In this document: positions 4,730 through 30,561 of the stretch, in pieces
Position numbering within the stretch: the first letter of the stretch is position 1
Layout of the letters: every line of letters begins with the position of its first letter
Source of the DNA: a virus
IMG/VR virus record: IMGVR_UViG_3300024229_000020
Coordinates: 1 to 32,659 of that record
Length of the DNA stretch: 32,659 bases
Strand: one strand, 5' to 3'
Made by a program: the position numbers and the translations under genes
The notes under the pieces: model-generated
Database searches by the model: none
What the model saw: the letters and a program-made list of their open reading frames with translations, nothing else
What the model was told of the DNA's origin: nothing

Positions 4730-4748
4730 AATCTGTGTAAATACTTAT
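4730..4748. promoter_or_regulatory. 19-base divergent intergenic region
   Basis: It separates the divergent genes starting at 4729 (minus) and 4749 (plus). Plus-strand TGTAAATA (4736-4743) lies five bases before the plus ATG. Minus-strand TATAAGTA (4749-4742), one mismatch from the late consensus, lies 12 bases before the minus ATG. Back-to-back overlapping late promoters are plausible; the plus one is the better candidate. Confidence 0.5.
4736..4743 (+). promoter_or_regulatory. Late promoter octamer, five bases before the ATG
   Basis: TGTAAATA followed by CTTAT and the ATG at 4749. With T4 late geometry the transcript starts on the A of the ATG. Confidence 0.6.
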
Positions 4749-5585
4749 ATGAAATACACTCTAATAACAACTTTTCACAAGCCTGGATTGGATCAATATG
4801 CACAAACCATGATTGATACTTTTGAAAAATATTGGCCTGATTCAGTTGATTTAGTATGTTATGCTGAAGACTGTACTCCTATAACAACTAAGAGCAATGT
4901 AAAAGTTGTTGACTTGCATGAGCGTTCCCCTGAACTTGTTGCATTTAAAAATAAATTTAAAACAGTTCCTTGGGCCAATGGCGAAGAGATGAAAGAAACA
5001 GGACTAAAGTTTGAGCAAAACAACTTTAAGTGGGACGCTGTTAGATTTTCAAACAAAGTATTCACAGTTATAGATGCCTGTCAGACCATAGATAGTGATT
5101 GGGTAATATGGATTGATGCAGACTCAAAAACACATAGTCCGGTAACAGAAGAATTTCTCAGCCAAGTATGCCCAGGTAGTCACTTTGTAAGTTATCTAGG
5201 ACGCAGAGCCAAGTATCATTCAGAGTGTGGTTGGGTAGCATACAATGTCAAACACGCTGACTGCAAAAAGTTTATGCTTGATTGGCGTGACTTGTATGTT
5301 AACGAAGGTGTATTTAACTTAAAAGAATATCACGATAGTTATGTGTTTGATCATATACGTAAACAATATCAAGAACAAGGCACAAAGTTTTATAACTTGT
5401 CGCCTGAGCTACCAGGTAAAGGACCTGGACATCCATTTATTGCTAGTCAACTAGGTACAGTAATGGATCATATGAAAGGCTTTAGACGCAAAGAGCTAGG
5501 CCATAGTTTCCCAGAAGATGTTACTATAAGAAATCAAGGTGCAAATCAAAACGTTAAGTATTGGAAACGTGTTACTAAGAGTTAG
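4749..5585 (+). CDS. GT-A-like glycosyltransferase on the opposite strand
   Basis: 278 residues. It begins TLITTFHKPG, as GT-A folds do (a beta strand leading to the nucleotide site), with WVIWIDADS (118-126) as the DxD metal site and SYLGRRAKYHSECGWVAYN (148-166) as the acceptor region. The probable donor is a nucleotide sugar. It is one of only two plus-strand genes. It has no ribosome-binding site but a late octamer five bases before the ATG. Its 3' end overlaps the convergent minus gene by 11 bases, so its mRNA may be antisense to its neighbours. The separate promoter and orientation suggest it was inserted independently. Confidence 0.65.
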   Translation: MKYTLITTFHKPGLDQYAQTMIDTFEKYWPDSVDLVCYAEDCTPITTKSNVKVVDLHERSPELVAFKNKFKTVPWANGEEMKETGLKFEQNNFKWDAVRFSNKVFTVIDACQTIDSDWVIWIDADSKTHSPVTEEFLSQVCPGSHFVSYLGRRAKYHSECGWVAYNVKHADCKKFMLDWRDLYVNEGVFNLKEYHDSYVFDHIRKQYQEQGTKFYNLSPELPGKGPGHPFIASQLGTVMDHMKGFRRKELGHSFPEDVTIRNQGANQNVKYWKRVTKS

Positions 5586-6504
5586 GTAAACGACTTCGCA
5601 TAAAGCGATACGCTTCTCCAGATTGTACTTCAGCTGTAGTCCAATGACACTGTGCAAGTTTATGATAAAACTCTTGTCTATCGTGCTTTGTAGGTATTTC
5701 AATGTGAGACAAATCAGTATTGCAGTAAGGGAAAACCTGACTACGTTCTGGTTGTGGATCTGTAACAAATACCGGTACTCCACATAATAAACTAGCAACG
5801 CCAGGTGAAGAATTATAAGTCACTGTTGCATGTGTACGATCAAGTTGCGTTATAAGATCAACTTCTTTAGGATTTTGTTTTGTTACATTACGCCATCGTG
5901 TATTATCAAACTGCTGAATTGTTTCTAAATTGCCTGGATGTCCTCTAACAACAATTGGTCTATCTGTACTTGCTCTAACAACATTAATAGTTTTGGTTAT
6001 CCAATTTAAAACATCTTCGCCTGCCATTGACCACCCACCACTTCGTTGTAAGCATACTAAAATATCTGTACCTGAGTGATAGTCACGTTCCTCAAATCCA
6101 TATGACTGTTTAATTTTGTTCCATCTAGATAGATCAGGATTTTTATTAAAGTACCAAGCGTCATTTGCAAATATGCCATCTAGTCCGTAACGTAAATATT
6201 TGTTAATATCTTGTGGATTCATAAATTGATAAAGATTGCTATCAATGATTAAACTGTGTTTACCATGCTGTCGTTGATGATCAATTGCATTTTTTCTAAT
6301 TAATAGATGTGGACTTTGTCTGCTGTGTTCGTGTACATATCCTTGTATTACAGCAATGTCGCAGTTGACAATACGATTGTCTTCTACTAGTACAACTTTA
6401 TCACCTACAGCTCGTACACCGTCGTGCCAACTACGCAAGATCATTTTTTTAAATTCGTTCTTGCTTCGTTTAGGTATTCCGCTAAGGTAAACGGCTACTT
6501 TCAT
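5575..6504 (-). CDS. GT-B-like glycan transferase, paralogue B
   Basis: 309 residues. DILVCLQR (147-154), TDRPIVVRGHPG (180-191) and TYNSSPGVASLLCGVPVF (229-246) correspond one-to-one to motifs of the protein at 3872-4729; the end TTAEVQSGEAYRFM matches both paralogues. The first 100 residues differ. Its ATG overlaps the stop of the 579-residue gene (ATGA), so it is translationally coupled to it and expressed from the late octamer at 8268-8275. Activity is inferred from the motif set only. Confidence 0.6.
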   Translation of the reverse strand: MKVAVYLSGIPKRSKNEFKKMILRSWHDGVRAVGDKVVLVEDNRIVNCDIAVIQGYVHEHSRQSPHLLIRKNAIDHQRQHGKHSLIIDSNLYQFMNPQDINKYLRYGLDGIFANDAWYFNKNPDLSRWNKIKQSYGFEERDYHSGTDILVCLQRSGGWSMAGEDVLNWITKTINVVRASTDRPIVVRGHPGNLETIQQFDNTRWRNVTKQNPKEVDLITQLDRTHATVTYNSSPGVASLLCGVPVFVTDPQPERSQVFPYCNTDLSHIEIPTKHDRQEFYHKLAQCHWTTAEVQSGEAYRFMRSRLPNS

Positions 6505-8240
6505 TTACTATTCCATTCCTGTACTAATCTCCAGGCATCACCGTTTTGTAACTCAGCTTGTGTAAATTGATGATAGGCAAGATTACTTAACAAGTACATA
6601 ACTTCATCTTGACTTGGATATAAAGGTGTTTCAATTTTACTTAAATCATTTAAACATAGAGGTGACCCGGCATTTTGCCCTAGAACAAACGCAGGTTTGC
6701 CCTCCATTAATGCTTCAATGCTAGCAATTGAATTGTAAGTAACTAAACAGTGTATGTCATCCTGAAGAGCTTGTTGTATAGTGTCTTGGTAGACTCTTTC
6801 TTTTCTTGACTTTTTAAGACGAACTACAATTTCTCTATCAGTATGTTTTTTAATCTGCGATAATGTATTTTCCATCCACTCATCTAAGTCTTCTCCATAA
6901 AACTGCATAGCCTTTTCACTGGGCGGACACAATAATATTTTTCCACCTGGAGTAAACTTTTTTGTATACCCATTTGCTTTAATGTATCTATCACTAGGAA
7001 CATCTCTTAACTTGCCACAATACTGTAAACTATTTTTAGTTACTCTATGCCAGTTTTTTGTTTTTGTATTGCCAAAGTAGCCGGTATCAACAAAGTAAAA
7101 GTCTCTCTTATTGTCTTGACACCAATCATAGATATGTCGTTTAGTAATACCTCTAAATGCCAATGGTCGTTTATCTTGTTTAGCTTTTCCGTCGTATATT
7201 GTTTTCCAATCAGTTAGTGTGCCGCCAGCACCTTGACAGAAATATTCAACTACCTTGTCCCATTTATATCCTTTATCTCGTAATGATTGACTTAGCTCAC
7301 TCATATCGCTTACTCCTAATACTCCTTGTGTACTGCGTTGTTTTTTAATCTGTTTAATTATGTCCTGACAAGATTGGGTATTGTATACGTCATACCCATC
7401 TAATAATACTTTTTGTAAATCAGTATATAACCGTTTCATTTCTGGGCCGTACGTTACTTGATCAACTTCAATCCTATTTCTTTTATCAACAGGGCAAGAC
7501 TTTTTGTGCTCCGCTAGATAATCATTCCACAAGTATCCGTACTGTACATCGTTCCAGCTGTTGAGGTGCATTTCAAACGGGAGATCCTTATCATCAAACC
7601 AAGGACCACCGTCGGTATAGTGTATAACGTTAGGTGTGCCGTAATCTTTTTCTTTGTAGTATCCCGATAACCAGTTCCAGTTCGGCGGCAATTTCTCAAT
7701 ACTGTTGTCAGAGCCCACCCACTCAAGTCTATGCAAATAGCTAGGTTTCTTTCCATTGACTGCATCTAATGTTAATCGTTGACTGTCAGCAGTATCACAA
7801 TTGAATACCATCATTGATGACCAATTCTTACGAGGATAAAATGTTTGTAGTTGCCCGTCCATCTTGCTTGCTGTCTTTGGACTATAACCATATTCATCAT
7901 GTGGCACCACTGCTACTGATTTATGATTGGGCAATAGATCATATACTTCTTTGATATCACTGGTCCATAAAAAATCACAATCACAAAATATAGCTTTACC
8001 AGTATAATTCATTAGATAAGGAACTAGGAATCGAGTATATGTAAATTCAGTTGAGGAGTTCTTATCTCTCTCTCTGGTTATTGTACCTTGAGATTCTAGT
8101 TCGTTTAATTTGAGATAGTGTATCTTAACAGGACATGATGCGTGTTTCAATATGCTGTATGCACAGACATCTGCGGCAATAGGTTCTCTTGAATCCCAGC
8201 CTATAAAAACATTGATTACTGTATGTGGTATTGTTGACAT
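6501..8240 (-). CDS. Two-domain glycosyltransferase: GT-A (family 8-like) fused to GT-B-like
   Basis: 579 residues. Residues 1-250 form a GT-A domain: INVFIGWDSRE (9-19), FCDCDFL with DxD at 87-89, NWSSMMVFN (139-147) and HYTDGGPWF (207-215). Residues 270-430 are a linker or incomplete GT-B N-terminal half. Residues 434-579 repeat the paralogue signature: ILLCPP (435-440), TDREIVVRLKKS (467-478), TYNSIASIEALMEGKPAFV (501-519) and TQAELQNGDAWR (560-571). In this copy the RPHP/RGHP element is replaced by RLKK, so this half may have a changed donor or be structural. A late octamer lies 27 bases above the start. A fusion of the two fold types suggests two sequential sugar additions by one protein. 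Confidence 0.68.
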   Translation of the reverse strand: MSTIPHTVINVFIGWDSREPIAADVCAYSILKHASCPVKIHYLKLNELESQGTITRERDKNSSTEFTYTRFLVPYLMNYTGKAIFCDCDFLWTSDIKEVYDLLPNHKSVAVVPHDEYGYSPKTASKMDGQLQTFYPRKNWSSMMVFNCDTADSQRLTLDAVNGKKPSYLHRLEWVGSDNSIEKLPPNWNWLSGYYKEKDYGTPNVIHYTDGGPWFDDKDLPFEMHLNSWNDVQYGYLWNDYLAEHKKSCPVDKRNRIEVDQVTYGPEMKRLYTDLQKVLLDGYDVYNTQSCQDIIKQIKKQRSTQGVLGVSDMSELSQSLRDKGYKWDKVVEYFCQGAGGTLTDWKTIYDGKAKQDKRPLAFRGITKRHIYDWCQDNKRDFYFVDTGYFGNTKTKNWHRVTKNSLQYCGKLRDVPSDRYIKANGYTKKFTPGGKILLCPPSEKAMQFYGEDLDEWMENTLSQIKKHTDREIVVRLKKSRKERVYQDTIQQALQDDIHCLVTYNSIASIEALMEGKPAFVLGQNAGSPLCLNDLSKIETPLYPSQDEVMYLLSNLAYHQFTQAELQNGDAWRLVQEWNSK

Positions 8241-8267
8241 AAACTCAATAATTATATACTAAGTTTA

Positions 8268-8275
8268 TATTTATC
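8268..8275 (-). promoter_or_regulatory. Late promoter octamer GATAAATA
   Basis: Located in the 38-base gap above the 579-residue glycosyltransferase gene, 27 bases from its ATG; drives it and the coupled gene at 5575-6504. Confidence 0.7.
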
Positions 8276-8278
8276 AGG

Positions 8279-9037
8279 TTAGTAGTTGCGGAAGTCGAAA
8301 ATTTGTTTATTTAACCACATCACTTTAAGATCCTGTTGCCTAACAAGGTTCCATTGATTTAAACTGTTGACTGCTGTTTCAGGTAACAGTTCTTGTTCAG
8401 CTAGATCAAACCAGGTTGTAGTACGATAGTCTAATTTTTGAAAGTTAGGTTGTTTATAAGCTACTGCATATATCCAAGGGTTGTTTCTTTCTTTTTTAAA
8501 AAATCCATCTTTACAGTCCCAGCCGTTGACAGCTAGGTGATGTATTAGACTGACTAGACTCCAATGATGGTAGTCATGACTATGTTGGTCAGCTATTACT
8601 GCATTGTGTTGTAAGAATGTTGATTCTGGAACAGCAATTACTAACATTGCGTTATCTCTTGCTAAATCCCACCAATGTCCTAAAGTTTGCAATGGATTGA
8701 CAGCATATTGTAAAACATTGTGAGCATAAATTACATCAAATTGACTATGTTTTAATTTACTGTCTTCAAAGTTATCTGTTACCGTTGTGATATTGTGATG
8801 GGAATATTTTGAGTCAAACGTATCGTCAATATCAATACCAGTACACTTGATGTTTAAAGGAGTCTCGTCATCTGGGTCAATAGTTCTAGTTGCCCACCAA
8901 TTTAAATCATGTCCGTTACCGTGTCCAATATCGAGAACAGTTCCAACTGACTCCATAAATGAAGTATAGTGACCAAGTTCGTTTAGGATCTGTAGACTAC
9001 TGTCGTGACTTTCTTGACCTAATAATTGTCTATACAC
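8279..9037 (-). CDS. Class I SAM-dependent methyltransferase
   Basis: 252 residues. Motif I VLDIGHGNGHDL (34-45), an acidic residue after GID (67-69), FDVIYAHNVLQY (100-111, motif IV) and LVIAVPESTF form the Rossmann-type methyltransferase core. The substrate-binding tail (150-252) is rich in His, Trp and Asn. The substrate may be the sugar made by the neighbouring transferases or another small molecule; no DNA-methylase DPPY motif is present. The start overlaps the end of uvsY by eight bases, so it is cotranscribed with the recombination genes although it stands at the edge of the sugar cassette. Confidence 0.72.
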   Translation of the reverse strand: MYRQLLGQESHDSSLQILNELGHYTSFMESVGTVLDIGHGNGHDLNWWATRTIDPDDETPLNIKCTGIDIDDTFDSKYSHHNITTVTDNFEDSKLKHSQFDVIYAHNVLQYAVNPLQTLGHWWDLARDNAMLVIAVPESTFLQHNAVIADQHSHDYHHWSLVSLIHHLAVNGWDCKDGFFKKERNNPWIYAVAYKQPNFQKLDYRTTTWFDLAEQELLPETAVNSLNQWNLVRQQDLKVMWLNKQIFDFRNY

Positions 9038-9485
9038 TAACGTCTTCCATTCCTGATGTTCTTAATCTAACTATGTGTCCTAGCATAAAGTTCTTTGATT
9101 CAAAACCTTTTAATATGCCAAGCCATTTGTTTCTTAACAGTGCTACATCATTGATCAATGTTTCAAAGTCAATAACTTCGTCTTCTCCATCCACATACTT
9201 TTCTGCATCACGTGATGTTAATGCTCGTTGGTAAGCTTCAAGATACTTTTGAAAGTGCTTACGTCTAATCTTACGTAGTTGTATGTTTAGATAATTAAGC
9301 ACTGCTTCTATTTCTTGTAATTGATTAAAGCGATGTTCAGTAATACCAGGTAAGTCACGAATGTTCTTTTCTACGTTACCGTATACCGAGCATTCCTTCT
9401 TAGCTGTCATTAATTCATTTTCATAAAATAACAGCATATCAGGTATTTTTGTAATATCTTTAGTTACATCACTGTACCAAGTCAT
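9030..9485 (-). CDS. uvsY: UvsY-like recombination mediator
   Basis: 151 residues. The C-terminal half, with LEAYQRALTSRDAEKYVDG, then a helix with LRNKWLGILKGFESKNF and GHIVRLR at the end, follows the layout of T4 UvsY (137 residues), which helps UvsX displace gp32 from single-stranded DNA. Position supports the call: uvsX lies one gene upstream on the same strand. The stop and start of adjacent genes overlap (TAATG), giving tight coupling. N-terminal residues 1-40 are longer than in T4. Confidence 0.82.
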   Translation of the reverse strand: MTWYSDVTKDITKIPDMLLFYENELMTAKKECSVYGNVEKNIRDLPGITEHRFNQLQEIEAVLNYLNIQLRKIRRKHFQKYLEAYQRALTSRDAEKYVDGEDEVIDFETLINDVALLRNKWLGILKGFESKNFMLGHIVRLRTSGMEDVSV

Positions 9486-9751
9486 TAGTAATCCTCTTCT
9501 TCTTCGCTATCGTCAAATTCGTCGCCCCAGACATCTAAACCGTCATCTTCTTCAATAACAGTATCATCATAATCTATTAATGCTTCACGAACTTCTTCGT
9601 CATCCATTAGTGTAGATTCTCTGATCTCTTTAGGACTAACACCCTGGGTATCGACCAGAGTGTGTACTAAATCAATGGCGGCTTCTTTGTGATTGCTTTC
9701 ATTGATATGTGTTTTTAACGTTTCAAAAATTTCTGCAACTGCGTTTAGCAT
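9485..9751 (-). CDS. Small acidic protein between uvsX and uvsY
   Basis: 88 residues. A helical N-terminus (MLNAVAEIFETLKTHI) and a helix-turn-helix-like middle with SPKEIRES and DDEEVREAL (residues 39-57) precede a strongly acidic tail (VIEEDDGLDVWGDEFDDSE, then EEEDY). The acidic tail could mimic DNA or contact UvsX, UvsY or gp32, but this is inference. The start has AAAGGAAT upstream and lies four bases past the uvsX stop. Similar small acidic genes occur next to uvsX in other marine T4-like phages. Confidence 0.65.
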   Translation of the reverse strand: MLNAVAEIFETLKTHINESNHKEAAIDLVHTLVDTQGVSPKEIRESTLMDDEEVREALIDYDDTVIEEDDGLDVWGDEFDDSEEEEDY

Positions 9752-9755
9752 GTTT

Positions 9756-10877
9756 TTATTCCTTTGTTTCTTCTACTGGTTCTACTGCCTCCGGTGCTTG
9801 CATTTCTGTAGCTACATCCATGCTTGCCTCAATATCTTCGATATTTACCTCATTGTTCTGATTTTTTAAGTGTTCCATTACTTTATCTAAACAACCATCA
9901 GTATTTGATTCCCATGCTTTACGGAACTGTTTAATTTCATTAGCACTATCTGGCTCACCAAAGCGTAGTCTATTACCGTCTTTCTTAAGTATGCCTTGTT
10001 TCTCTGCTAGATCAACTAGTCCGCTGTACGGGTTCATGCCTGTTTCATATGGTATTTTAACTTGCACGCCTTCAAAAGGTTTAGCGTAACGTGTTTTCAT
10101 AATCTTACAACCAGCTCTAATACCTTTAACTTCTGATATCTTGTTGCCATCTTCGTCTTCTTTCAGTTTCATTTTCTTCATTGCTACTACAATACTTGAA
10201 GCGTAAATAAAACCTTGTCCACCTGATATTTTATCATCTGGATCAAACATGTCTTGTGATGCGTATGTATGATTAGTACACACCATACCTACATTAGCAC
10301 TACCAAACATATTAACTGTATTACGCACTAGTGATGTTAATGCTTTAGGTTTCCTACCCATATCACCTTTCATGTCACCTTTTTCAAACTGAGCAACATC
10401 TGTTGGTGTTAACAACATACCCAATGAATCAATAACAAATAATACTTTAGGTCTTTCTTCTTCATTCATAGCACGATACTCAGCCATAAAGTCATTGATA
10501 GTTTTAGCTACGTCATCAATCATAGCCATATTGAGTTTGAGCAGTTTCTCTGGTCCAGTGTCAACTTTTAATGCTTGTAGCCAAGCTTCATCAAGTGCGT
10601 TCTCTGAATCAATCAGTACTACAAAGATACCTTGTTCTTGTGCTTCTTTAACAATGTTACCTGAACAAATATAACTTTTACCTGCACCTGATTCGCCAGC
10701 AAACACTGTTACTTTGCCTAACGGAATACCTTTGTTAAAGTCACCACTAATTAAATAATTTAGGGCATAGTTACCTGTCGATACCCAATCTGTTGGATCG
10801 TTAAATCCAATTGATAGTCCAGAAATTGATTTACTAATACTCTTTCTAAACTTACTTACGTCAAATGGTTTTGCCAT
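9756..10877 (-). CDS. uvsX: UvsX recombinase (RecA/Rad51 family)
   Basis: 373 residues. Walker A GESGAGKS at 61-68, Walker B VLFVIDS with D150, CTNHTYASQDMFDP and SGGQGFIYASSIVVAMKK cover the RecA core and the DNA-binding loops. The length is near T4 UvsX (391). It polymerises on single-stranded DNA coated by gp32 and carries out strand exchange, with UvsY as loader. The C-terminus (340-373) is acidic, as in many RecA-like proteins. The start has AAGGAAGAG at good distance; a TTGCAC-17-TAAAAT promoter lies just upstream, after the gene 32 terminator. Confidence 0.96.
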   Translation of the reverse strand: MAKPFDVSKFRKSISKSISGLSIGFNDPTDWVSTGNYALNYLISGDFNKGIPLGKVTVFAGESGAGKSYICSGNIVKEAQEQGIFVVLIDSENALDEAWLQALKVDTGPEKLLKLNMAMIDDVAKTINDFMAEYRAMNEEERPKVLFVIDSLGMLLTPTDVAQFEKGDMKGDMGRKPKALTSLVRNTVNMFGSANVGMVCTNHTYASQDMFDPDDKISGGQGFIYASSIVVAMKKMKLKEDEDGNKISEVKGIRAGCKIMKTRYAKPFEGVQVKIPYETGMNPYSGLVDLAEKQGILKKDGNRLRFGEPDSANEIKQFRKAWESNTDGCLDKVMEHLKNQNNEVNIEDIEASMDVATEMQAPEAVEPVEETKE

Positions 10878-10913
10878 AATCTCTTCCTTGTTCTTCTTGT
10901 GTGTTTAAAAGTA

Positions 10914-10942
10914 ATTTTACAGTCATCAAATAAATTGTGCAA
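10914..10942 (-). promoter_or_regulatory. Candidate promoter for uvsX
   Basis: Minus-strand TTGCAC (10942-10937), a 17 bp spacer and TAAAAT (10919-10914). The -10 is good, the -35 weak. It lies between the gene 32 terminator and the uvsX ribosome site. Confidence 0.45.
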
Positions 10943-10960
10943 CGATTAAATTGCCAAATT

Positions 10961-10993
10961 AAAAAGTGTGAGCGATAGTATTATATCGCCCAC
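10961..10993 (-). terminator. Intrinsic terminator after gene 32
   Basis: A 10 bp stem on the minus strand (GTGGGCGATA / TATCGCTCAC, one G-U pair), a six-base loop, then ACTTTTT. It lies 11 bases after the gene 32 stop. Confidence 0.82.
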
Positions 10994-11003
10994 TACTAAT
11001 TAG

Positions 11004-12144: not shown

Positions 12145-12177
12145 CGGTTATATTGGTATATTTTACCAAATGGTCGT

Positions 12178-14214: not shown

Positions 14215-14219
14215 AAGTG

Positions 14220-14227
14220 TATTTATC
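14220..14227 (-). promoter_or_regulatory. Late promoter octamer, five bases before the ATG
   Basis: GATAAATA followed by CACTT and the ATG at 14214. No Shine-Dalgarno can fit; a leaderless transcript is predicted. Confidence 0.68.
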
Positions 14228-15805: not shown

Positions 15806-16000
15806 CTACTTCCTTGGCATTGGATTTTCACCTGTTAAGTGAGGTTGTGAGAACCATAACTTAAACCATTCTGGAGACCCTGGGCGAATATCATGTTTTT
15901 TCATATATTCACTTTTCTCCGTGGCAGTATGTGATATGTTCTCTCCCATTGTAGGAGTGTCATTTACACCTGCTAGTTGTTTAAGTTGTTCTATATCCAT
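15806..16000 (-). CDS. Small conserved protein preceding the large terminase
   Basis: 64 residues. It starts MDIEQLKQLAGV, a short amphipathic element that recurs with variation elsewhere in this genome, and ends with IRPGSPEWFKLWFSQPHLTG, a segment I recognise from the gene just upstream of 17 in other marine T4-like phages. It is not the full small terminase (too short, no central coiled coil). Its stop abuts the gp17 start, so a packaging-related role is a reasonable guess. TAAATA lies five bases before the ATG, with no ribosome site. Confidence 0.68.
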   Translation of the reverse strand: MDIEQLKQLAGVNDTPTMGENISHTATEKSEYMKKHDIRPGSPEWFKLWFSQPHLTGENPMPRK

Positions 16001-16004
16001 ACTA

Positions 16005-16655
16005 TTATTTAACGTCTATTGGTCTCTTTTTAGTGGCTATAATACCATAACTCATTTCAGTAAACTCTTCTCCAGACTTTTTATCTAGTGCTGTTGATTC
16101 TAAGTTGTTTGATATATCAAGATCAAACCCAGCTCTAACAAGTAGGTTTAATATCATCTTATCTGTTAATATAGAATAATGGTTTGGGTTTGCTTCATGA
16201 TTTCTTACGTTGCCAGGTGCCGGTGTTTCAATATATATTTTAGCATCTGGTTTTAGTACTCTATTATACTCTAACAGTGTTATATAAGGAAATGGTGAAT
16301 GCTCTAATACTTGTCTACAAAAGATAAAGTCTAATGATTCGTCTTTATCAGACAAGAAACTGATATCTTCATCTCTTACTTTATGCTTTTTCTTTTTGCA
16401 TATTTCAAGATCTTCTCTAGTACCTGCTGTGCCTACAACGTTTTTATATTTTTCTTTTTTCATTATATCTAAGAAATAACCTGGACCACAGCCAACGTCT
16501 AATATATTTGCTGACTTTTTAAGTTTGAGTGGTTTGATCATAAGATCATATATTTCTTGTGTTGTAATTTTATGATAATCACTTTCAGGTTCAGCATACA
16601 CCTGTGTTAAAATAAAATCATAATAGAGTTTAAATTTTACTGAATCAAATTTCAT
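16005..16655 (-). CDS. Class I SAM-dependent methyltransferase
   Basis: 216 residues. Motif I ILDVGCGPGYF (51-61), DFIFCRQVLEHSPFP (motif IV region, near 110-125), VLKPDAKIYIETP and a C-terminal YGIIATKK complete a small-molecule or polysaccharide-type methyltransferase fold. It is not related in detail to the one at 8279-9037 beyond the shared fold. It has AAGGAC ten bases before the ATG. It stands alone among packaging and structural genes; modification of a virion glycan or host surface sugar is one possibility. The stop region overlaps the putative late element of the next gene. Confidence 0.75.
   Translation of the reverse strand: MKFDSVKFKLYYDFILTQVYAEPESDYHKITTQEIYDLMIKPLKLKKSANILDVGCGPGYFLDIMKKEKYKNVVGTAGTREDLEICKKKKHKVRDEDISFLSDKDESLDFIFCRQVLEHSPFPYITLLEYNRVLKPDAKIYIETPAPGNVRNHEANPNHYSILTDKMILNLLVRAGFDLDISNNLESTALDKKSGEEFTEMSYGIIATKKRPIDVK
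16006..16011 (-). promoter_or_regulatory. TAAATA element five bases before the ATG
   Basis: TTAAATA followed by ATAGT and the ATG at 16000. It overlaps the stop codon of the methyltransferase gene, so chance is harder to exclude than at the non-coding sites. Confidence 0.42.
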
Positions 16656-18433: not shown

Positions 18434-18438
18434 ATAAC

Positions 18439-18446
18439 TATTTATC
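18439..18446 (-). promoter_or_regulatory. Late promoter octamer, five bases before the ATG
   Basis: GATAAATA followed by GTTAT and the ATG at 18433. It drives the unit 18433 to 16702. Confidence 0.68.
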
Positions 18447-23646: not shown

Positions 23647-24080
23647 TATCTTGCCCCACTTCTAAATATATCTTCTTCTGTAACTACTCTAAACCGTAGT
23701 CCGTTTTGTTTACACCATCGCATTGCTTGTTCCCATTTAGCATGATTAATTGCTACTGTTTCTGCTAGCCTACGATTTTGATTTTTACTTTCAATTATAC
23801 TTTGATTTTTAGGTTTAATTTCTACCAGCTCTGTTATTAATTTACCTGTTTTGTCTTGGTACTGGACTAAAAAGTCAGGAATGTAATTTGTATTTTTACC
23901 TGTGAACGGGTGTTTGTAAGGGATCTTAACACATTCACTTGCCCACTTGACTACGCTAGGATGCGAATCACAAAATTGCATAAATGCACTTTCCCAACTA
24001 GATCGATAGGTTGGTGCTTTACTTCCTACAAATTTTTCTGGATTTTTTACAGTGAACTTACCTTTGTGAAATCTAGCCAT
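23646..24080 (-). CDS. 4: Head completion protein gp4
   Basis: 144 residues. TYRSSWESAFMQFCDSHPSVVKWASE (24-49), IPYKHPFTGKNTNYIPDF (53-70) and ELVEIKPKNQ are landmarks of the T4 gp4 (gp50/65) family, needed after DNA packaging to finish the head before tail joining. E30, D69 and the ELVEIK pair E87/K89 also give a complete PD-(D/E)xK nuclease signature of the TnsA type. AGGTG precedes the ATG. Confidence 0.82.
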   Translation of the reverse strand: MARFHKGKFTVKNPEKFVGSKAPTYRSSWESAFMQFCDSHPSVVKWASECVKIPYKHPFTGKNTNYIPDFLVQYQDKTGKLITELVEIKPKNQSIIESKNQNRRLAETVAINHAKWEQAMRWCKQNGLRFRVVTEEDIFRSGAR

Positions 24081-24083
24081 TAG

Positions 24084-24443
24084 CTACACCTGCACGTTTC
24101 TTGCGGCATAGATATTTGGTTGTTGTACATTTGTAACGCCTAACAATGTTGCTTTTGATCTTAAACCATTAAGATAGTAAGCAATAGTAGCATTTACAGA
24201 AACACCATCTTGACCTTTCATTTCCTCAAGTATGTCTAATGCAGACTTTTCATACCCTGTAGCAATTTGAAATACTACTCCTGTAAAGTCATCTGCAATA
24301 TTTGGATTTTGATATAGATCTAAAAAATATGCTCTAATAAGATCATACTCGTTAATATCTACTTTAATTTCTCTTTTATAGAAGCTGTCAAAGATTATTA
24401 TAGATGCATCAGTGTCTGACTTTTTAATGTTAACTGTACTCAT
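24084..24443 (-). CDS. Conserved tail-region protein, unknown function
   Basis: 119 residues. FDSFYKREIKVDINEYDLIRAYFLD (18-42) and ATIAYYLNGLRSKATLLGV, ending PNIYAARNVQ, form a helical protein I know from the same tail region of other marine T4-like genomes. No catalytic motif, Cys or membrane segment. It lies between the tube-like baseplate protein and gene 4; a tail assembly or baseplate role is suggested by context. TAAATA lies five bases before the ATG with no ribosome site. Confidence 0.6.
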   Translation of the reverse strand: MSTVNIKKSDTDASIIIFDSFYKREIKVDINEYDLIRAYFLDLYQNPNIADDFTGVVFQIATGYEKSALDILEEMKGQDGVSVNATIAYYLNGLRSKATLLGVTNVQQPNIYAARNVQV

Positions 24444-24447
24444 ACTT

Positions 24448-26154
24448 CTATTTAACCCTAATTGTACTACTGGTTAGATTATCTACTGGTGCTGGCGATG
24501 TTCGTAGTCCAGAATCTGACAACGGTTTTTCTATTTTTGGTTTAATTTTGGCACCGCTCCTATTTGCAAAAGCTACAACTTCTGCATTACTCTTTGTAAT
24601 ATCTGTACTAATTTCTGGAGTTGAGTTATATACTGATCCATCAGGTCTTCTATAAACGTCTGTTACTATCATTCTTCCTATAGTTGCAGTTTGTGCAGAG
24701 ACTCCAGCACCTCCTGCTGTATTGCTATCAGCTACCGCACCAACCACTACTCCTCCAGCATAACTAACATCTTCAAGAGTTGTTCTTCTTTCTAAAACAG
24801 TTCCTACAGGCCACCCTGGCGGATTAAATATTTCTTCTTGAGATGTAATTGATTCAGCTTCGACACTGACAGCACCAATACCAGCAACACCAACATTTTG
24901 TCCGTTACTTGTAGCTCCAGAATTTCTTACACGTGTCTCATTTTGTGCCAATGGTGCTAATGACCCTCTACTTTCTTCAATTACTTGAGCTCTTGTTTTA
25001 GCTTTTTTTGTACTAGGACTAGGAAATACTGTTGCTGATGTTGCTGGATTGCCTGTTACTTTTCTAATTTCTTTTGAAGCTTCAGCATTAATCTCTTCTT
25101 TAAATGTATCATTTGGATCATCTATCTTACTGTAATTATAAACAGCAGAACCACCTTTAATTACTGCACCCAATAAATTACCTTGTGATAAATCTTCAAA
25201 TGCACCTACACCAGCATCTAATATTCCGCCCTGACCAAAGAAGGAGTTAGTGGTCCCTGGACGGCTTAGTGAACTTGGCACTGTATCATAGTGTTCTGAA
25301 CTATTGAATCCTGGTACTTGACTTTTTCCAATAGCACCACTACCATATTTTACTGATTCAAATTTGATAGTCATTGAGTTTGACATCGAATCGCCACCTG
25401 CTGAATAATCATAAGTGTCGTGTCTAAAGTCTGTAATAATTGGATTAACTAATGTGTAAGAAACAAAGCTATGTTGATTAAATCCATATATTGTAATATC
25501 TCTAAAGAACTGAGGCTTGTCAATTGCTCCACCAACACCTTCGCCTATATATCCCCAATCGTTACCTATTTTATCTGGAGCATATATATCTCTAGCATTT
25601 TGATCTGCTTGGTTACCGCGACTTGCTGGTCCTTGAATACCACCAAATATATCGTCGGTATTTATTGGAAGTATACCGTTAACAAAGTCACCAATGCCTG
25701 TACCTGATAATAGATTAGTTGATTGTGTTGATTGATTTCCGCCGTAGGCTTGAGCAGGATCTTTATAGAAATAGTTGTAGTATGCAAACCATAATGATCT
25801 TACAATATCACTTGAATCATCATGGAAGTCAACTTGTACTGGTTCGTAGTTAATTTTAGTTTGGATGTTACGCTTTCTATTGTATTGATTCATCGTTTCA
25901 ATATCAAACGTATAGTTTGGTAGTTGAATAGATTTAGTCAACACACTGACACGCGAACTATCTCTTGCGCCGAAGAGTTTCGTTAGTCCAGGTATCTCAG
26001 TTGTATTAACATTGAAATACACATGGAAAAGGTATTTTAACCTAGGTGCAAGGGCATATCCAGCAGATGTAAAAGTTTTGCTGGCGTGCCTGTAGTCTTT
26101 TAGATAATCACCACCCAAGAACCCCTTCAAAACATTGTCGAAGAAGCCTGCCAT
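24448..26154 (-). CDS. Baseplate tail-tube-like protein (gp48/gp54-like)
   Basis: 568 residues against 364 (T4 gp48) and 320 (gp54). Residues 25-125 have the tube fold shared with gp19: LKYLFHVYF, SVLTKSIQLPNYTFDIETMNQYNRK (about 70-93) and YEPVQVDFHDDSSDI. FFRDITIYGFNQHSFVSYTLVNP and NSMTIKFESVKYG continue it to about 275. The last 280 residues are Ala/Ser/Gly/Thr-rich with little folded character, an extension not found in T4. gp54 starts tube growth and gp48 caps the baseplate hub; I cannot decide between them. AGGT precedes the start and gene 19 is immediately upstream. Confidence 0.72.
   Translation of the reverse strand: MAGFFDNVLKGFLGGDYLKDYRHASKTFTSAGYALAPRLKYLFHVYFNVNTTEIPGLTKLFGARDSSRVSVLTKSIQLPNYTFDIETMNQYNRKRNIQTKINYEPVQVDFHDDSSDIVRSLWFAYYNYFYKDPAQAYGGNQSTQSTNLLSGTGIGDFVNGILPINTDDIFGGIQGPASRGNQADQNARDIYAPDKIGNDWGYIGEGVGGAIDKPQFFRDITIYGFNQHSFVSYTLVNPIITDFRHDTYDYSAGGDSMSNSMTIKFESVKYGSGAIGKSQVPGFNSSEHYDTVPSSLSRPGTTNSFFGQGGILDAGVGAFEDLSQGNLLGAVIKGGSAVYNYSKIDDPNDTFKEEINAEASKEIRKVTGNPATSATVFPSPSTKKAKTRAQVIEESRGSLAPLAQNETRVRNSGATSNGQNVGVAGIGAVSVEAESITSQEEIFNPPGWPVGTVLERRTTLEDVSYAGGVVVGAVADSNTAGGAGVSAQTATIGRMIVTDVYRRPDGSVYNSTPEISTDITKSNAEVVAFANRSGAKIKPKIEKPLSDSGLRTSPAPVDNLTSSTIRVK
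24449..24454 (-). promoter_or_regulatory. TAAATA element five bases before the ATG
   Basis: TTAAATA followed by GAAGT and the ATG at 24443. It overlaps the stop codon of the gene upstream, so it could be chance. Confidence 0.42.
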
Positions 26155-26160
26155 AGTCTA

Positions 26161-26778
26161 TTAACCTGTTACTACTGTGCCTAGTGCTCTACCAACTTCT
26201 GTGCCTACACCGTCACCAATTGGTGTTTGTATAGCATTATCAAATCTAATCGATGCTGTTACAGTTGCTGGAGCTGAATCTGTATATGTTAAGTCGTTAT
26301 AGTTAACTGAAGTCAAGTAACAACCATATAGTTCCCATGTTTCTAAAACAACTGGTTCATTAGCACCGTTACCACCGTCTAATACTTCGCAACGTGTAAT
26401 AAATTTATAGTCAATACCTGCTGAAGCAGATGATTGTTCCATAAAGTCAAATTGTTTCTGTAACTGTTCGCCCATTAATTTTGCAACGTTGCCGCCTGCA
26501 TCATCACGGAAGTTTACTGTTACGTCGTCCCATGTATGTTTACCTGCCATTCTCATTTTTGAGTTATAAAGATCAATTGTAATATCTTCAAACGAAACTG
26601 ATGGTCTAGTAAAGTCCATTACTTGTTTTGTTAATTCTGTTCTTGGTGTTGAAACACCTAAGTTTTCAAATACTGCTCTAAAGCGGTACTTGAGTTTTGG
26701 CATCAATAAGCCTTGCGTTGATGCACTCTGATCGCTCGCTAAAGGTACAGTCATTTTTGTTAATGATGAAACCGCCAT
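26161..26778 (-). CDS. 19: Tail tube protein gp19
   Basis: 205 residues against 163 in T4. LKYRFRAVFENLG (29-41), MDFTRPSVSFEDITIDLYNSKM (53-74), HTWDDVTVNFRDDAGGNV and LYGCYLTSVNYNDLTY follow the order of gp19. It polymerises inside the sheath to make the rigid tube through which DNA passes. A late octamer lies 28 bases above the ATG and AAGGAG is the ribosome site. The gene lies between the sheath gene and the tube-like baseplate gene. Confidence 0.93.
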   Translation of the reverse strand: MAVSSLTKMTVPLASDQSASTQGLLMPKLKYRFRAVFENLGVSTPRTELTKQVMDFTRPSVSFEDITIDLYNSKMRMAGKHTWDDVTVNFRDDAGGNVAKLMGEQLQKQFDFMEQSSASAGIDYKFITRCEVLDGGNGANEPVVLETWELYGCYLTSVNYNDLTYTDSAPATVTASIRFDNAIQTPIGDGVGTEVGRALGTVVTG

Positions 26779-26805
26779 TTGTATATCTCCTTCTTGTTAT
26801 GCAAG

Positions 26806-26813
26806 TATTTATC
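26806..26813 (-). promoter_or_regulatory. 19: Late promoter octamer GATAAATA of gene 19
   Basis: 28 bases above the gene 19 ATG, just after the sheath terminator. Confidence 0.78.
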
Positions 26814-26826
26814 ACTCTGCAGTCAC

Positions 26827-26850
26827 AAAAAATGGCTCCGAAGAACCATT
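26827..26850 (-). terminator. UUCG-loop terminator after the sheath gene
   Basis: Minus-strand stem AATGGTTC / GAGCCATT (8 bp, one G-U pair) closed by a TTCG tetraloop, then a run of T. The C(UUCG)G cap is the classic T4 terminator form. It lies 27 bases after the gene 18 stop. Confidence 0.88.
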
Positions 26851-26876
26851 ATCTGCGTATATAATTACTTATACTT

Positions 26877-29800
26877 TTATAAATTACCTGCTTCAATTTC
26901 TCCAGTGTTTTTAATTCTTACTGGAATGTAAATGAACTCAACTGCTTTAGTTGGTTCAATAGCAATATCAATATAAAGTTCATTTCTATCAATTCTTGCT
27001 GGAGTGTTGTTTGTTTCATCACAAACAACTAGGTAATCGTAAATACCACGTTTAGCAGTAATATCGTTTAATAACTGTTCTACTGCATTCTTAACTTCGT
27101 TACGTGTAATTGTATCATTTGGTTCAAACATAAATGCTTTACCAGTTGCTTCTAATTTACCACGTAAGTATGCAACTAATCTAGCTACGTTAATTCTGTC
27201 TAGTGCTGATGTAGCACCTGCAACAGTTTTGTTACCGTAGTTAGTTAAGCCGCTACCTGGAACAAAAGTTAGTGGGTTAACATTGTTTTCATATAGAGTG
27301 TCACGTACTGATTCTCTGTTTGCAACTTGTTCAAACTCACCAGTTGCTGTAACATAACCTAATGCTGTAACATTGTCAATTAAACCACGTCTGTTACCTG
27401 CTGGAGCTAACCATGGATAACCTTGCTCGTCGTTTCTAATAATTGTTCTTAATATCGCATGTGATGCTGGAACAACTACTGCTGTGCCTGTTAAGTCATT
27501 TGCTCTAGCTGACGGATAAAATACTGACGCATATGGATCATTTGTTACTAGTCCATCTTCACCGTCTGTACCTTCACCACCTGCATCGCTTGCCCAGTTT
27601 TGTAACGCTGTTGAGTTATCTGATAATCTAAATGGTGTATCACCAATAACAAAACCAGTGTTGTTTCTGTCATTGTTAAGTGCTACCATATTTTGAATTA
27701 ACTCTGGATAACCTGGAGCCGCTAATAAGTTAAACTCTCTTTGTTCTTCACGTATTGCTGTGTTTGTATCAATGCCTGCTTTCATAGCCGCTACCACAAC
27801 TTGACGTTGTGCTTTTCTACCCATGTAAGGTGAACCATCTGCTTTATTACCTGACACAGTTACCCACGCATCTTTGTTTGTTGGTAAGCTAGCATCTGGA
27901 AAGTCAGTTGCATTAAAGTAATCTGTTTTATATTGTTTAACTGTGTAACCTGAACGTCGTGTGTTAAACAATAATGTACCTGCTGGATATAGTGCCGCAC
28001 TCGGTGCATCTGCATCTAGATAGTTGCTTGATGCTAGTGCTGTAATAGTTGCTATATCTCCACTTACTGGATCAACATCTGCTGTTGACCAACGAGCGTC
28101 TGCAAATAAAATACCGTTTTCTGTTGTTTGATCTGCGTTATCAATAGTTACCCATTGATCAGTTCCGTCAACACTTTCCCAACGTTTAACTATTGGATAG
28201 TTTTCTAAGTCACTTGAGTCTAACCATAAGTCACCATATGCTAATGCTGTTTTAGCAGTATCGTTCTGTGTTGTTGGTGCACTTGCTGATACTTGAATAC
28301 CTTTAGCATTTGTGTTAGAAAGATTGAATCCTCTAACATCATTTGTTACTGTTAGGTAACCTTTCCAGTTAGAACCATCATGTACTAGCATGTCAACTTC
28401 GTCAACTGCTGAATGATACCAGTATGTTAAGTTAGCTGGATCCTGTGTAGGTTCAGTTGCTTTAGCTTCATATGTTAATGAGTTCCAGTTTGAAAATATA
28501 ACTGTTGAACCGTCTGCTTTAACTCTTGTGTTAGCACCTAAATCAGCTAACGCTGAAATACCAAACGCTTCTAATGTAGCTGTATTTGTTGTATCTTTAA
28601 TTTCAATAGCACCACCTTGTGTATGCTTAATTGTTAAGAATCCATCAGTTACTGAAGCAACAGTGTTAGCTACACCAGCAGTATTAAATGCTGAAGCATA
28701 GTCTTGAATTGTTGTACCACTAACTGTAGCTGTAACTGCTGTTGTCATTGTTGACGAACCTTTCGCACTAGCTGAGATAGTAAATTCTGAACCTGTTGTA
28801 ATTGTTGGATTAGCTGTTGTTGATGTTACTGTTGTTTCGCCTGTTTGTGAACGAACATGTAATTTTAATGTAGCTGTATAGTTTTCAGACCAATCTAGAT
28901 ATCCGTATACTACACCTGCTGTAACATTTCTACCGCCGCCTGCTGGATCAAGTTCTTTATTTGCTGTGGCATCATCAGCGTATAATGGAACTGTGATTGT
29001 AGTCCAAGCATCTGTAGCTTCATCATACTGTTTAACAACAATGTTAGCACCATTGTTAACTGAAGTAGTTTTTTGCCATAAAGAGCCTGTTGGACGTGCA
29101 GTTGTGTCAGTTGATTTCCAACGTGGTAAACTTGTATGCTTAGCCTGTGTAAATTCTGGAGCATATTTTGTACCAGCTGTAATACTTAAATCTGTTAGTA
29201 GTGTACCTGTGCCTGCTATAATATCCCATGCACCATCACCTGCTGATCCTTCTGGAGTCACATCTGAGTCTGCATAAATTTCTAGCTTGCCTTCAACAGC
29301 GGCCGCAGTAATACCAGCAATTGATAAAGTGTTAATATCACTTGCTAACGAAGTAACAGTTGTACCTGAAGCAGTAACAGTTATACCATTAATAATAATA
29401 GTATGTCCTGCTGTTAGTACTGGATTAGTTGTTCCGCTTTGTACTGAGTACCAAGCATTTTGCCAATCGTCTGATCCAACTAATACCCACGCACCTGCAC
29501 TATTTTTATAGTAAACTGGATTTGCTGTGTTAGTTGTAACCACTGCATAATCACCAATTGCGCCAACTGATGCTTTTGGAACACCACCAGTTAAGTCGTC
29601 TGTTGATGTAATTGCTACTGGTACTTTATTTGTAAATTTACCAGTCGTTGCACTAAATTCAAATAAACCCCATTTAGTTTCTGCAGTGTCTAACCAGTAT
29701 GAATTATCATCTGCGTCACCAACTGGTCTAGTTAGTCTTGCTGATAGTGCCGCTAAGTCAACGTCAACACGTTGAACGTATGCTCTGTTAGAAACACCTA

Positions 29801-30101
29801 ACACTGAGTGAGCGGCTAATAATCCGTATTCATTAAGTTCGTAGCCATTTAATGGAGTACCGTTAGTACTTGAATAAAAGAATGGACTACCGTATAGTGA
29901 TGCTAGTTCTCGTTGACTAGTCACTAGTTGTATGTTGTTTGCGTTTGCGGCAGTTGTTGCTGTCGCTACTCCTGTTCCTGTACCACTTACTTTATTTTGT
30001 GCTGTTGCAATAAGCAAATAAGGAACTGAATTTGTTGCGGCTGGTAAGTATTGACTTTCGTCAACTACGCTTACTTCTACGCCTGGGGATACTAATGCCA
30101 T
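26877..30101 (-). CDS. 18: Tail sheath protein gp18, enlarged
   Basis: 1074 residues against 659 in T4. The N-terminus MALVSPGVEVSVVDES and the C-terminal third (REEQREFNLLAAPGYPELI, GYPWLAPAGNRRGLI, NPLTFVPGSGLTNYGNKT, FMFEPNDTITRNEVKN, AVEFIYIPVRI) are diagnostic of contractile sheaths. The extra 400 or so residues lie between about 150 and 760: Thr/Ser/Ala/Gly-rich beta segments including two similar units (ITVTASGTTVTSLASDIN and TATVSGTTIQDYASAFN), likely surface domains. It forms the contracting outer tail. A canonical late octamer is 43 bases upstream. Confidence 0.95.
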   Translation of the reverse strand: MALVSPGVEVSVVDESQYLPAATNSVPYLLIATAQNKVSGTGTGVATATTAANANNIQLVTSQRELASLYGSPFFYSSTNGTPLNGYELNEYGLLAAHSVLGVSNRAYVQRVDVDLAALSARLTRPVGDADDNSYWLDTAETKWGLFEFSATTGKFTNKVPVAITSTDDLTGGVPKASVGAIGDYAVVTTNTANPVYYKNSAGAWVLVGSDDWQNAWYSVQSGTTNPVLTAGHTIIINGITVTASGTTVTSLASDINTLSIAGITAAAVEGKLEIYADSDVTPEGSAGDGAWDIIAGTGTLLTDLSITAGTKYAPEFTQAKHTSLPRWKSTDTTARPTGSLWQKTTSVNNGANIVVKQYDEATDAWTTITVPLYADDATANKELDPAGGGRNVTAGVVYGYLDWSENYTATLKLHVRSQTGETTVTSTTANPTITTGSEFTISASAKGSSTMTTAVTATVSGTTIQDYASAFNTAGVANTVASVTDGFLTIKHTQGGAIEIKDTTNTATLEAFGISALADLGANTRVKADGSTVIFSNWNSLTYEAKATEPTQDPANLTYWYHSAVDEVDMLVHDGSNWKGYLTVTNDVRGFNLSNTNAKGIQVSASAPTTQNDTAKTALAYGDLWLDSSDLENYPIVKRWESVDGTDQWVTIDNADQTTENGILFADARWSTADVDPVSGDIATITALASSNYLDADAPSAALYPAGTLLFNTRRSGYTVKQYKTDYFNATDFPDASLPTNKDAWVTVSGNKADGSPYMGRKAQRQVVVAAMKAGIDTNTAIREEQREFNLLAAPGYPELIQNMVALNNDRNNTGFVIGDTPFRLSDNSTALQNWASDAGGEGTDGEDGLVTNDPYASVFYPSARANDLTGTAVVVPASHAILRTIIRNDEQGYPWLAPAGNRRGLIDNVTALGYVTATGEFEQVANRESVRDTLYENNVNPLTFVPGSGLTNYGNKTVAGATSALDRINVARLVAYLRGKLEATGKAFMFEPNDTITRNEVKNAVEQLLNDITAKRGIYDYLVVCDETNNTPARIDRNELYIDIAIEPTKAVEFIYIPVRIKNTGEIEAGNL

Positions 30102-30143
30102 AATATTTTCCTCGTTTATAATTCAGTATATAACTGTTACGAA

Positions 30144-30151
30144 TATTTATA
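30144..30151 (-). promoter_or_regulatory. 18: Canonical T4 late promoter TATAAATA of gene 18
   Basis: Exact T4 late consensus, 43 bases above the sheath ATG. Confidence 0.85.
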
Positions 30152-30200
30152 CGATTAGACCTAAATCACCCTGTTATGTGAGCCTTTGCAAAGGTTTTCT

Positions 30201-30208
30201 ACTAAATA
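30201..30208 (+). promoter_or_regulatory. Late promoter-like element, five bases before the ATG
   Basis: ACTAAATA followed by CTGCT and the ATG at 30214. Confidence 0.55.
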
Positions 30209-30213
30209 CTGCT

Positions 30214-30561
30214 ATGAAACGCCCTATATGCAAGGCCTGTAATCAATTTCCGGCCGCTATCAACTATAAAAAAGACGGTAAAACACATTACCGTAGTCGG
30301 TGTGCAGTTTGCATTAATAAGAACCGCAAAGTAAAACCACCTACACCAAGATGGCGTTTAAAAGGATATGTTAAAAAGTCTACGTGTGATATTTGTAAAT
30401 TTAGAGCAAAGCATGGTAGTCAAATACAGGTATATCATATAGATGGAAATTTAAATAACACAGAATTAATTAATTTAAGATCAGTTTGTTTGAATTGCAG
30501 TGCTATTCTTCAGAAGCAGGATTCTTCTTGGAAGCCGGGTGATATCAGTCCTGATGTATAA
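30214..30561 (+). CDS. Double zinc-binding, HNH-like protein
   Basis: 115 residues from the ATG at 30214; a longer in-frame extension to 30178 lacks any signal and would start above the late element. Pairs C6/C9 with C30/C33 form one zinc ribbon, C58/C61 with C92/C95 a second. VYHIDGNLNNTELINLRSVCLNC (73-95) follows the HNH pattern (H75, N79, N87), but the usual His after the last Cys is Ser and the first His of the HH pair is Tyr. DNA binding is likely, cleavage doubtful. Closely similar proteins occur in other marine T4-like phages. The end overlaps gene 1 by 17 bases on the opposite strand. Confidence 0.75.
   Translation: MKRPICKACNQFPAAINYKKDGKTHYRSRCAVCINKNRKVKPPTPRWRLKGYVKKSTCDICKFRAKHGSQIQVYHIDGNLNNTELINLRSVCLNCSAILQKQDSSWKPGDISPDV

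Follow-up and report, generated by a model that had tools for sequence, protein, structure and literature searches.

In a 32,659-nucleotide (nt) stretch of viral DNA (IMG/VR record IMGVR_UViG_3300024229_000020, positions 1 to 32,659; hereafter the window), six genes begin with an ATG that follows the late-promoter core TAAATA after a spacer of exactly 5 nt (TAAATA-N5-ATG), and the same arrangement recurs as a sharp distance peak both in relatives of this phage and in the distantly related pelagiphages. A second peak is formed by sigma-70-type promoters, with TATAAT 6 nt before the ATG. Judged from sequence, these spacings make it very probable that the phages transcribe many of their genes, from late as well as sigma-70 promoters, into leaderless or nearly leaderless mRNAs, beside genes with conventional leaders. 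The window is the entire virus record and probably a fragment of a larger genome; its source is a large, uncultured, T4-related phage.

Six late-type boxes lie 5 nt before start codons in the window

An earlier note on this DNA had described six TAAATA-N5-ATG starts, all of which were recovered, two on the plus strand and four on the minus strand:

4736..4748, plus strand: late-type box TGTAAATA and 5-nt spacer before ATG 4749 (278-amino-acid protein with no PHROG or Pfam match)
30201..30213, plus strand: late-type box ACTAAATA and 5-nt spacer before ATG 30214 (HNH endonuclease, PHROG)
14215..14227, minus strand: late-type box GATAAATA and spacer CACTT before ATG 14214 (660-amino-acid virion structural protein, PHROG)
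18434..18446, minus strand: late-type box GATAAATA and 5-nt spacer before ATG 18433 (83-amino-acid protein)
16001..16013, minus strand: GTTAAATA box over the stop of the upstream gene and 5-nt spacer, ATG 16000 (64-amino-acid protein upstream of the terminase)
24444..24456, minus strand: GTTAAATA box over the stop of the upstream gene and 5-nt spacer, ATG 24443 (119-amino-acid protein; the weakest of the six)

Reading the sequence bore out that the boxes at 16000 and 24443 overlap an upstream stop codon, and the claim that the six starts lack a ribosome site was upheld by a Shine-Dalgarno (SD) word test (GGAG, GAGG, AGGA or AAGG between −18 and −5); at 24443, AGGG is present at −16 to −13, outside the word list. 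The minus strand carries all selected open reading frames (ORFs) except 4749 and 30214, which are both lone plus-strand genes among minus-strand neighbours and should therefore need a promoter of their own; both are among the six. ATG 4749 sits 19 bp from the divergent ATG 4729, with minus-strand genes on both sides, and the box of 14214 is located in the 24-nt gap behind the terminase gene.

Counting both strands, the window has 38 copies of TAAATA, compared with 40.7 in a second-order Markov simulation, whereas TAAATA-N5-ATG is present six times and averages 0.79 in the simulation (maximum 4 across 300 second-order runs). The note's estimate that far fewer than one match would be expected by chance also held: the expectation is 0.026 over 44 starts, with P(≥6) of ~4e-13, a post hoc value from a hand-made list that includes 15801, which is not a true start.

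TAAATA-to-ATG distances peak at 5 in two distant lineages

Related loci were collected by scans with the terminase, tail tube and UvsX. Of the 240 loci obtained, 94 had more than 10% of their 24-mers in common with the window or with a longer locus and were removed; the remaining 146 loci comprise 1.66 Mb. A scan with the capsid gene of HTVC008M, a cultured SAR11 phage, gave 80 pelagiphage loci; 24 were removed as redundant or too near HTVC008M and 56 were retained. In addition, seven whole records (G001, G002, G006, G007, G009, G013 and G014) were chosen from 17 relative records after the counts had been seen, which biases them to higher values; they overlap partly with the 146 loci, six loci being shared, and 148 distance-5 sites are left without those six. 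Where an open frame was demanded, it comprised 50 codons after the ATG.

The sharp peak at distance 5 that the earlier note had predicted for related genomes is present in both the 146 loci of the window's clade and the 56 pelagiphage loci. In the former, an ATG stands at distance 5 after 169 of 1256 TAAATA boxes, compared with 24.5 expected and with 39, 34 and 52 at distances 4, 6 and 7; with an open frame the counts are 154 at distance 5 and 32, 17 and 44 at 4, 6 and 7. TAAATA at 5 has the top z value (28.7) among all hexamer-distance pairs, many of the runners-up resembling, by eye, coding words of shared genes, and the reversed hexamer has no excess at distance 5 in these loci. Among boxes with a single change, TAAGTA also peaks at 5 (40 vs 4.5), as do TAATTA, TAAATG and TTAATA weakly; the TAAGTA peak is not seen in the pelagiphage loci.

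The starts at distance 5 share a distinct anatomy. SD words accompany 3% of the 154 open-frame starts, compared with 31–86% at distances 17 to 34, and a pyrimidine occupies −1 in 96%. Among ATG, GTG, TTG and CTG, enrichment at distance 5 is seen for ATG only (169 vs 24.5 expected; GTG, 16 vs 14.6; TTG, 22 vs 26.8). There is no conserved −35 element at the 154 sites, no base exceeding 0.49 from −40 to −14, and the bases at −13/−12 are not strictly TA, being mostly GA in the window's clade and mostly TA in the pelagiphages. In the window's clade the motif is found at 48 of 258 divergent genes vs 76 of 1404 same-strand genes (odds ratio 4.0, Fisher p = 4e-11). The 75 distance-5 sites of the seven records fall into 43 protein families. 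In the pelagiphage loci, 55 open-frame distance-5 starts were counted, two with an SD word and 51 with T at −1.

Across records, TAAATA-N5-ATG exceeds its reversed-pattern control in all 17 relatives (153 vs 25 sites) and in HTVC008M (14 vs 4), and shows no excess in 14 other named phages (86 vs 86). The seven records and HTVC008M have 7–16 distance-5 starts each (Poisson p from 3e-7 to 8e-22); the corresponding counts are 3 in T4 (p = 0.2), 0 in Syn9, 1 in S-PM2, 4 in P-SSM2 (p = 0.025), 5 in PA5oct (p = 0.08) and 0 in 49-kb pieces of Atu_ph07 and Phosso. Of the 12 HTVC008M sites, 11 were looked at and all 11 coincide with annotated coding-sequence starts; SD words are present at 2 of the 12. 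The genes include those for the DNA end protector (gp2, 18916), tape measure (16007), baseplate proteins and CsgF (7562), and the divergent gp2 and gp4 (18916 and 18943), whose ATGs lie 26 bp apart, each have the box at 5.

At the DNA level, the first 25 kb of the window matched none of 50,697 named phage records. Its terminase is closest to that of PA5oct and kin (53%), followed by Phosso, Vibrio 2.275.O and Atu_ph07. In a terminase tree (midpoint root, long branches, seven named phages without a label), HTVC008M falls into a group with Syn9 and P-SSM2 that is remote from the window's clade, and a single origin of the trait was rejected on this ground. The same tree requires five changes in the distance-5 label of the 14214 gene, three of which are forced by starred branches.

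Chance, base composition or stop-codon overlap is an extremely improbable explanation of these peaks, and what speaks for it comes from the window. There, the count of six is tied by ten other hexamer-distance pairs (all ATGs, distances 0–19), so the window is not decisive and the relatives are. Chance could still account for an individual site, for instance 24443, which is weakly conserved, with 6 of 38 homologues at distance 4–7 and an SD-like word in four of those six. For the clade, chance is refuted by the relatives' counts, by the counts collapsed to families and by the reversed hexamer, and composition is excluded by the Markov simulation, the reversed pattern and SAR11 DNA: one SAR11 genome (0.79 Mb, 29% GC) shows no peak, with 7 vs 7.2 for TAAATA at 5 and 8 vs 6.4 for TATAAT at 6. 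Stop-codon overlap was likewise rejected, as the TAA of the box is the neighbour's stop at only 9 of 124 sites.

Many homologous genes keep either the abutting box or a leader

Upstream regions of homologues, taken from the 146 loci, show how far each arrangement is conserved. In the 14214 family 47 of 50 members have the box at distance 4–7 (1 at 4, 22 at 5, 4 at 6 and 20 at 7) and three at 21–23. The members with spacing 7 cluster (L050, L051, L062 and others) and often read TAAATA-NNNNACT-ATG, with an A three bases before the ATG. Homologues of the HNH gene 30214 have the box at 4–7 in 29 of 35 cases, 21 of these at 5; those of 18433 at 5 in 3 of 3; those of 16000 at 5 in 8 of 14, the remaining six having neither TAAATA nor an SD word; and those of 4749 at 4–5 in 5 of 10. 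In one further family (first residues MKIVVATGGFDPIHSGH in one member), all 26 sites at distance 4–7 are at exactly 5.

The earlier note had set against these starts five genes with normal leaders and the same octamer further upstream. TAAATA indeed lies 40, 27, 23, 27 and 42 nt before 3125, 8240, 23099, 26778 and 30101, but 8240 and 23099 lack an SD word, so that the designation is not clean for these two; 23099 carries AGGGG, outside the word list. The clearest contrasts are:

26779..26813, minus strand: GATAAATA at 27-nt spacing with AAGGAG, before the tail tube gene (ATG 26778)
30102..30151, minus strand: TATAAATA box 42 nt before the ATG, with GAGG, before the tail sheath gene (ATG 30101)

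Tail tube homologues have an SD word in 62 of 62 cases and TAAATA at 18–36 in 61, and tail sheath homologues an SD word in 38 of 38 and TAAATA at 22–44 in 36; neither family has a box at 4–7. For the single-stranded DNA-binding protein (SSB) and UvsX, SD words are present in 60 of 60 and 74 of 82 homologues, and TAAATA is almost absent from both. Homologues of 23099 have TAAATA at 17–36 in 44 of 44 (SD in 30), those of 9751 an SD word in 10 of 11, and the single homologue of 3125 is leadered; those of 8240 are mixed, 4 of 31 having the box at 5, three at 24–28 and 24 no box. The coexistence of leaderless and leadered starts, which the note had proposed, is thus borne out by SD usage as a function of distance and by the homologue families.

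The same comparisons bear on a reading in which the box is a true promoter and the ATG at +1 is a by-product of a pyrimidine-A initiator, with translation starting downstream behind an SD word in a short leader. We consider this unlikely. For the six window genes, retained homologue starts almost always lie within three codons of the window Met (14214: offset 0 in 33 of 50 and ≤3 codons in 50 of 50; 30214: ≤2 codons in 34 of 35; 16000: offset 0 in 14 of 14), after exclusion of two subjects for 14214 and six for 24443 with no start within 8 codons or a late match start. In alignment, 14214 and its Phosso homologue match from residue 1, and the Phosso start is preceded by TATAAATA, 21 nt and an SD word; the gene is, at the level of sequence, leadered in Phosso and leaderless in the window. 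The invariant distance of the MKIVVATGGFDPIHSGH family also speaks against a by-product. In favour of one, and against our reading, are two HTVC008M genes: the gp4 start lies 12–14 codons upstream of the nearest ATG in all seven homologues compared, with Met15 aligning with the start of most of them, and the gp25 start lies 7–16 codons upstream of three measurable homologues, so that these two genes may start further down. Also on this side, gp2 of S-PM2 begins 15 codons further up. Leadered sites, moreover, also tend to have A at +1: SD-bearing leadered boxes share GA at −13/−12 and have A at the same predicted position in 0.62 of 151 cases, a preference that counts for our reading as well.

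Sigma-70-type promoters form a second peak at distance 6

A search for other boxes at SD-less starts returned TATAAT at distance 6 (19 vs 0.96). With an open frame, TATAAT-N6-ATG occurs 26 times, compared with ~5.5 per distance; among the 25 sites with enough upstream DNA, one has an SD word and 21 match TTGACA in at least four positions. Of two control words for the −35 region, ACAGTT was found at 1 of 25 sites and CATTGA at 17 of 25, the latter perhaps from the shared TTGA. Two-element promoters, defined by TTG plus at least 5/6 matches, a spacer of 15–18 and at least 5/6 matches to TATAAT, number 20 at distance 6 in the seven records (baseline 2.2, p = 3e-13; 17 families), with a 17-bp spacer in 14 of the 20. 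The same peak is seen among the 146 loci (15; p = 1e-10; 10 families) and among those of the pelagiphages (10; p = 6e-9; 5 families). No peak was found in T4 (0), Syn9 (1), S-PM2 (1) or PA5oct (0), and P-SSM2 has a slight excess (2; p = 0.03). The earlier reading of leaderless late mRNAs is supported by the distance peak at 5, but late promoters are not the only ones to show the trait.

Two starts in the window are candidates for this group:

598..609, minus strand: TATAAT and 6-nt spacer before ATG 597 (DNA helicase, PHROG); best −35 match 3/6
31678..31713, minus strand: TTGACC-17-TATAAT and 7-nt spacer before ATG 31677 (exonuclease, PHROG)

The ORF of ATG 597 mechanically opens upstream at 633. 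Starts like that at 597 in two relatives (G001 and G002, orthologous by eye) read TTGACA/TTGACT-16-TATAAT-N6-ATG, and five starts like that at 31677 (L294, L344, L089, L100 and L145, likewise by eye) have the 6-nt spacer. The pelagiphage late sigma gene itself seems to start directly at TTGACN-17-TATAAT-N6-ATG in 5 of 10 sites (L435, L440, L444, L449 and L465, by eye), its identity being PHROG-confirmed for L440, L444 and L449; the HTVC008M gp55 start instead has AAAGGA upstream.

Both spacings put the predicted +1 on the A of the start codon

The −10 boxes of sigma-70 promoters end at −7. The T4 late octamer had been placed by the earlier note at about −13 to −6, in agreement with the wording 'A(-13) in place of T' in PMC2988020, by which the first base of the box is −13. 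With late boxes ending at −6 and sigma-70 boxes at −7, spacers of 5 and 6 nt put +1 on the A of the ATG for both. Two different boxes registered to the same A suggest that the RNA start, and not a translation signal, is what is registered, which is the strongest argument for leaderless messages.

An alternative, which we regard as very unlikely, is that TAAATA-N5 acts as an AU-rich translation signal within a longer leadered mRNA and is not a promoter. The lack of SD words at these starts would fit, as would the pelagiphage loci, in which divergent genes are not enriched (3 of 24 vs 41 of 516), few divergent genes being present there. The same octamer, however, occurs 17–40 nt before SD-bearing genes, the motif is enriched at divergent starts in the window's clade, the pyrimidine at −1 is initiator-like, and a second box with its own −35 element registers likewise, one base further out.

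For the leaderless reading, the motifs, their spacing, the loss of the SD word, the strict ATG, the strand-switch enrichment in the window's clade and the late sigma genes of relatives (below) are features of the sequences themselves; an RNA 5′ end on the A of the ATG would follow from the spacing only, and the translation route and benefit given here we likewise infer. A gp55-type late sigma would recognise (G/T)ATAAATA with its last base at −6, so that a 5-nt spacer lets transcription start on the A of the AUG. Spacings of 4, 6 and 7 would represent minor departures from this, and at 7 the mRNA may carry a leader of 3 nt. At some TTGACN-17-TATAAT promoters, those with a 6-nt spacer, host-type sigma-70 polymerase would do likewise. 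The resulting mRNA would have no SD leader and would be initiated by ribosomes recognising its 5′-terminal AUG, while the tail sheath, tail tube and other late genes would keep a leader of roughly 10–40 nt with an SD word. The likely benefit is that such a gene would stay silent in read-through RNA from an upstream operon, where it would not be translated because it lacks an SD word, and would be switched on only when its own promoter fires.

Several further observations weigh against this reading. The pelagiphage loci lack the divergent-gene enrichment, as noted. ATA is also above expectation at distance 5 (80 vs 34), perhaps from leaders that begin with ATA, such as that of the tail tube gene. 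Family-weighted A at the +1 of leadered sites is unremarkable in the 146 loci (0.46, with 0.50 at +3) and the pelagiphage loci (0.47, with 0.52 at +2), although it stands out in the seven records (0.54 vs 0.31–0.34 at adjacent positions). The distance-7 class does not agree with +1 on the A at standard spacing. On the sigma-70 side, the −1 pyrimidine is weaker at TATAAT-N6-ATG (17 of 25), the peak reaches p < 0.05 singly in 4 of the 7 records, and HTVC008M taken alone shows the late peak and not the sigma-70 peak (1 of 55 promoters at 6). A T4 gp45 query matched none of 20 records, an uninformative result, as it had no positive control.

Late sigma factor, bS21 and the host

Queries with T4 gp55 recovered a late sigma gene of the gp55 type from 9 of the 17 relatives and from 6 of 7 named phages; in the window fragment none was found, as far as was looked. 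The homologues of the relatives have, by eye, a gp55-like core plus extra sequence, and four proteins (three from relatives and one from PA5oct) match the PHROG late sigma families 12791 and 234 with E values of 1e-77 to 1e-82. Ribosomal protein bS21 is encoded by 9 of 17 relatives (G001, G002, G003, G004, G007, G008, G010, G013 and G014) and by HTVC008M (91228); among the 14 other named phages, four have it too, namely PA5oct, Atu_ph07, Phosso and Vibrio 2.275.O. As a cause of the trait it was rejected; since these four have no clear distance-5 excess, it is a weak correlate only. In four relatives (G001, G002, G013 and G014), a possible bS21 start is preceded by a TAAATA box together with an SD-like word.

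Two-element sigma-70 promoters at distance 6 are absent from the 0.79 Mb of SAR11 DNA (0 of 153), and since neither peak is found there, the phages seem not simply to copy this kind of host. Host mimicry was rejected on the basis of this one genome; a mild excess in four SAR11 genomes, scored without the open-frame filter (TATAAT-N6-ATG, 155 vs 115 reversed), speaks the other way, and the genomes used may not represent the isolation host of HTVC008M. A wider proposal is that in lytic phages a leaderless architecture extends over the whole genome, uses both sigma factors and is not derived from the host. A bare 5′ AUG would mark phage mRNAs; phage and host messages would then use separate initiation routes, perhaps helped by phage bS21. 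We regard this proposal as possible but doubtful.

Relation to known systems

Late promoters of T4 (gp55/gp33/gp45; TATAAATA) have the core box, the sigma family and structural genes behind the box in common with those described here. In T4, however, there is no distance-5 peak and boxes cluster ~21–29 nt before the ATG; the window's clade prefers GA at −13/−12. The cyanophages, for two of which, S-PM2 and Syn9, PMC2984593 describes late promoters of the form NATAAATA, use the same box, and Syn9 and P-SSM2 are nearest to HTVC008M among named phages in the terminase tree; their open-frame starts differ in lying mostly at least 20 nt behind the box, with few at distance 5 (counts above). In T4 gene e and I-TevI, a late promoter beside the ribosome site limits translation to the late transcript, as stated in PMC3014915; there the ribosome site is sequestered, whereas here there is no SD word and the promoter lies directly before the start codon.

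Leaderless mRNAs are known in bacteria and temperate phages, lambda cI being an example. They share with the present starts an AUG at or next to +1, the absence of an SD word and a strictly kept AUG, and differ in that many genes of T4-related phages are involved here, with one spacing for a late sigma and another for sigma-70. According to PMC5312081, transcripts of phages 'are often leaderless', but AR9, considered as a precedent, was set aside, its leaders being given there as 26–491 nt. The literature searched, most subscription journals lying outside it, yielded no description of leaderless late mRNAs for T4-related phages.

Starts that abut a promoter are unexpected for a lytic phage. 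If our reading is true, T4-related ocean phages translate many early-type and late-type genes by a leaderless route that is usually deemed marginal there; gene starts could be called better, and HTVC008M on SAR11 would be a cultured pair in which the competition of leaderless messages for ribosomes could be tested directly. Leaderless starts may also help to explain why late-promoter prediction in pelagiphages was, by the account in PMC7029224, unsuccessful.

Other features of the window

Genes in the window include those for the tail sheath, tail tube, terminase, a UvsX-like protein and SSB. Between 3165 and 8240 several proteins appear, by eye, to be sugar-related; PHROG assigns 3165–3887 to a glycosyltransferase and 6501–8240 to a family without function, with no match for 3872–4729 and 4749–5585. 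A 12-bp palindrome, CCTTTGCAAAGG, lies at 30183–30194, just upstream of the HNH start at 30214, and CCTTNNNNAAGG is found within 60 nt of the start in 12 of 35 HNH homologues, as a perfect palindrome in 10 of the 12, with five different centres. This resembles a binding site for a dimer more than a hairpin.

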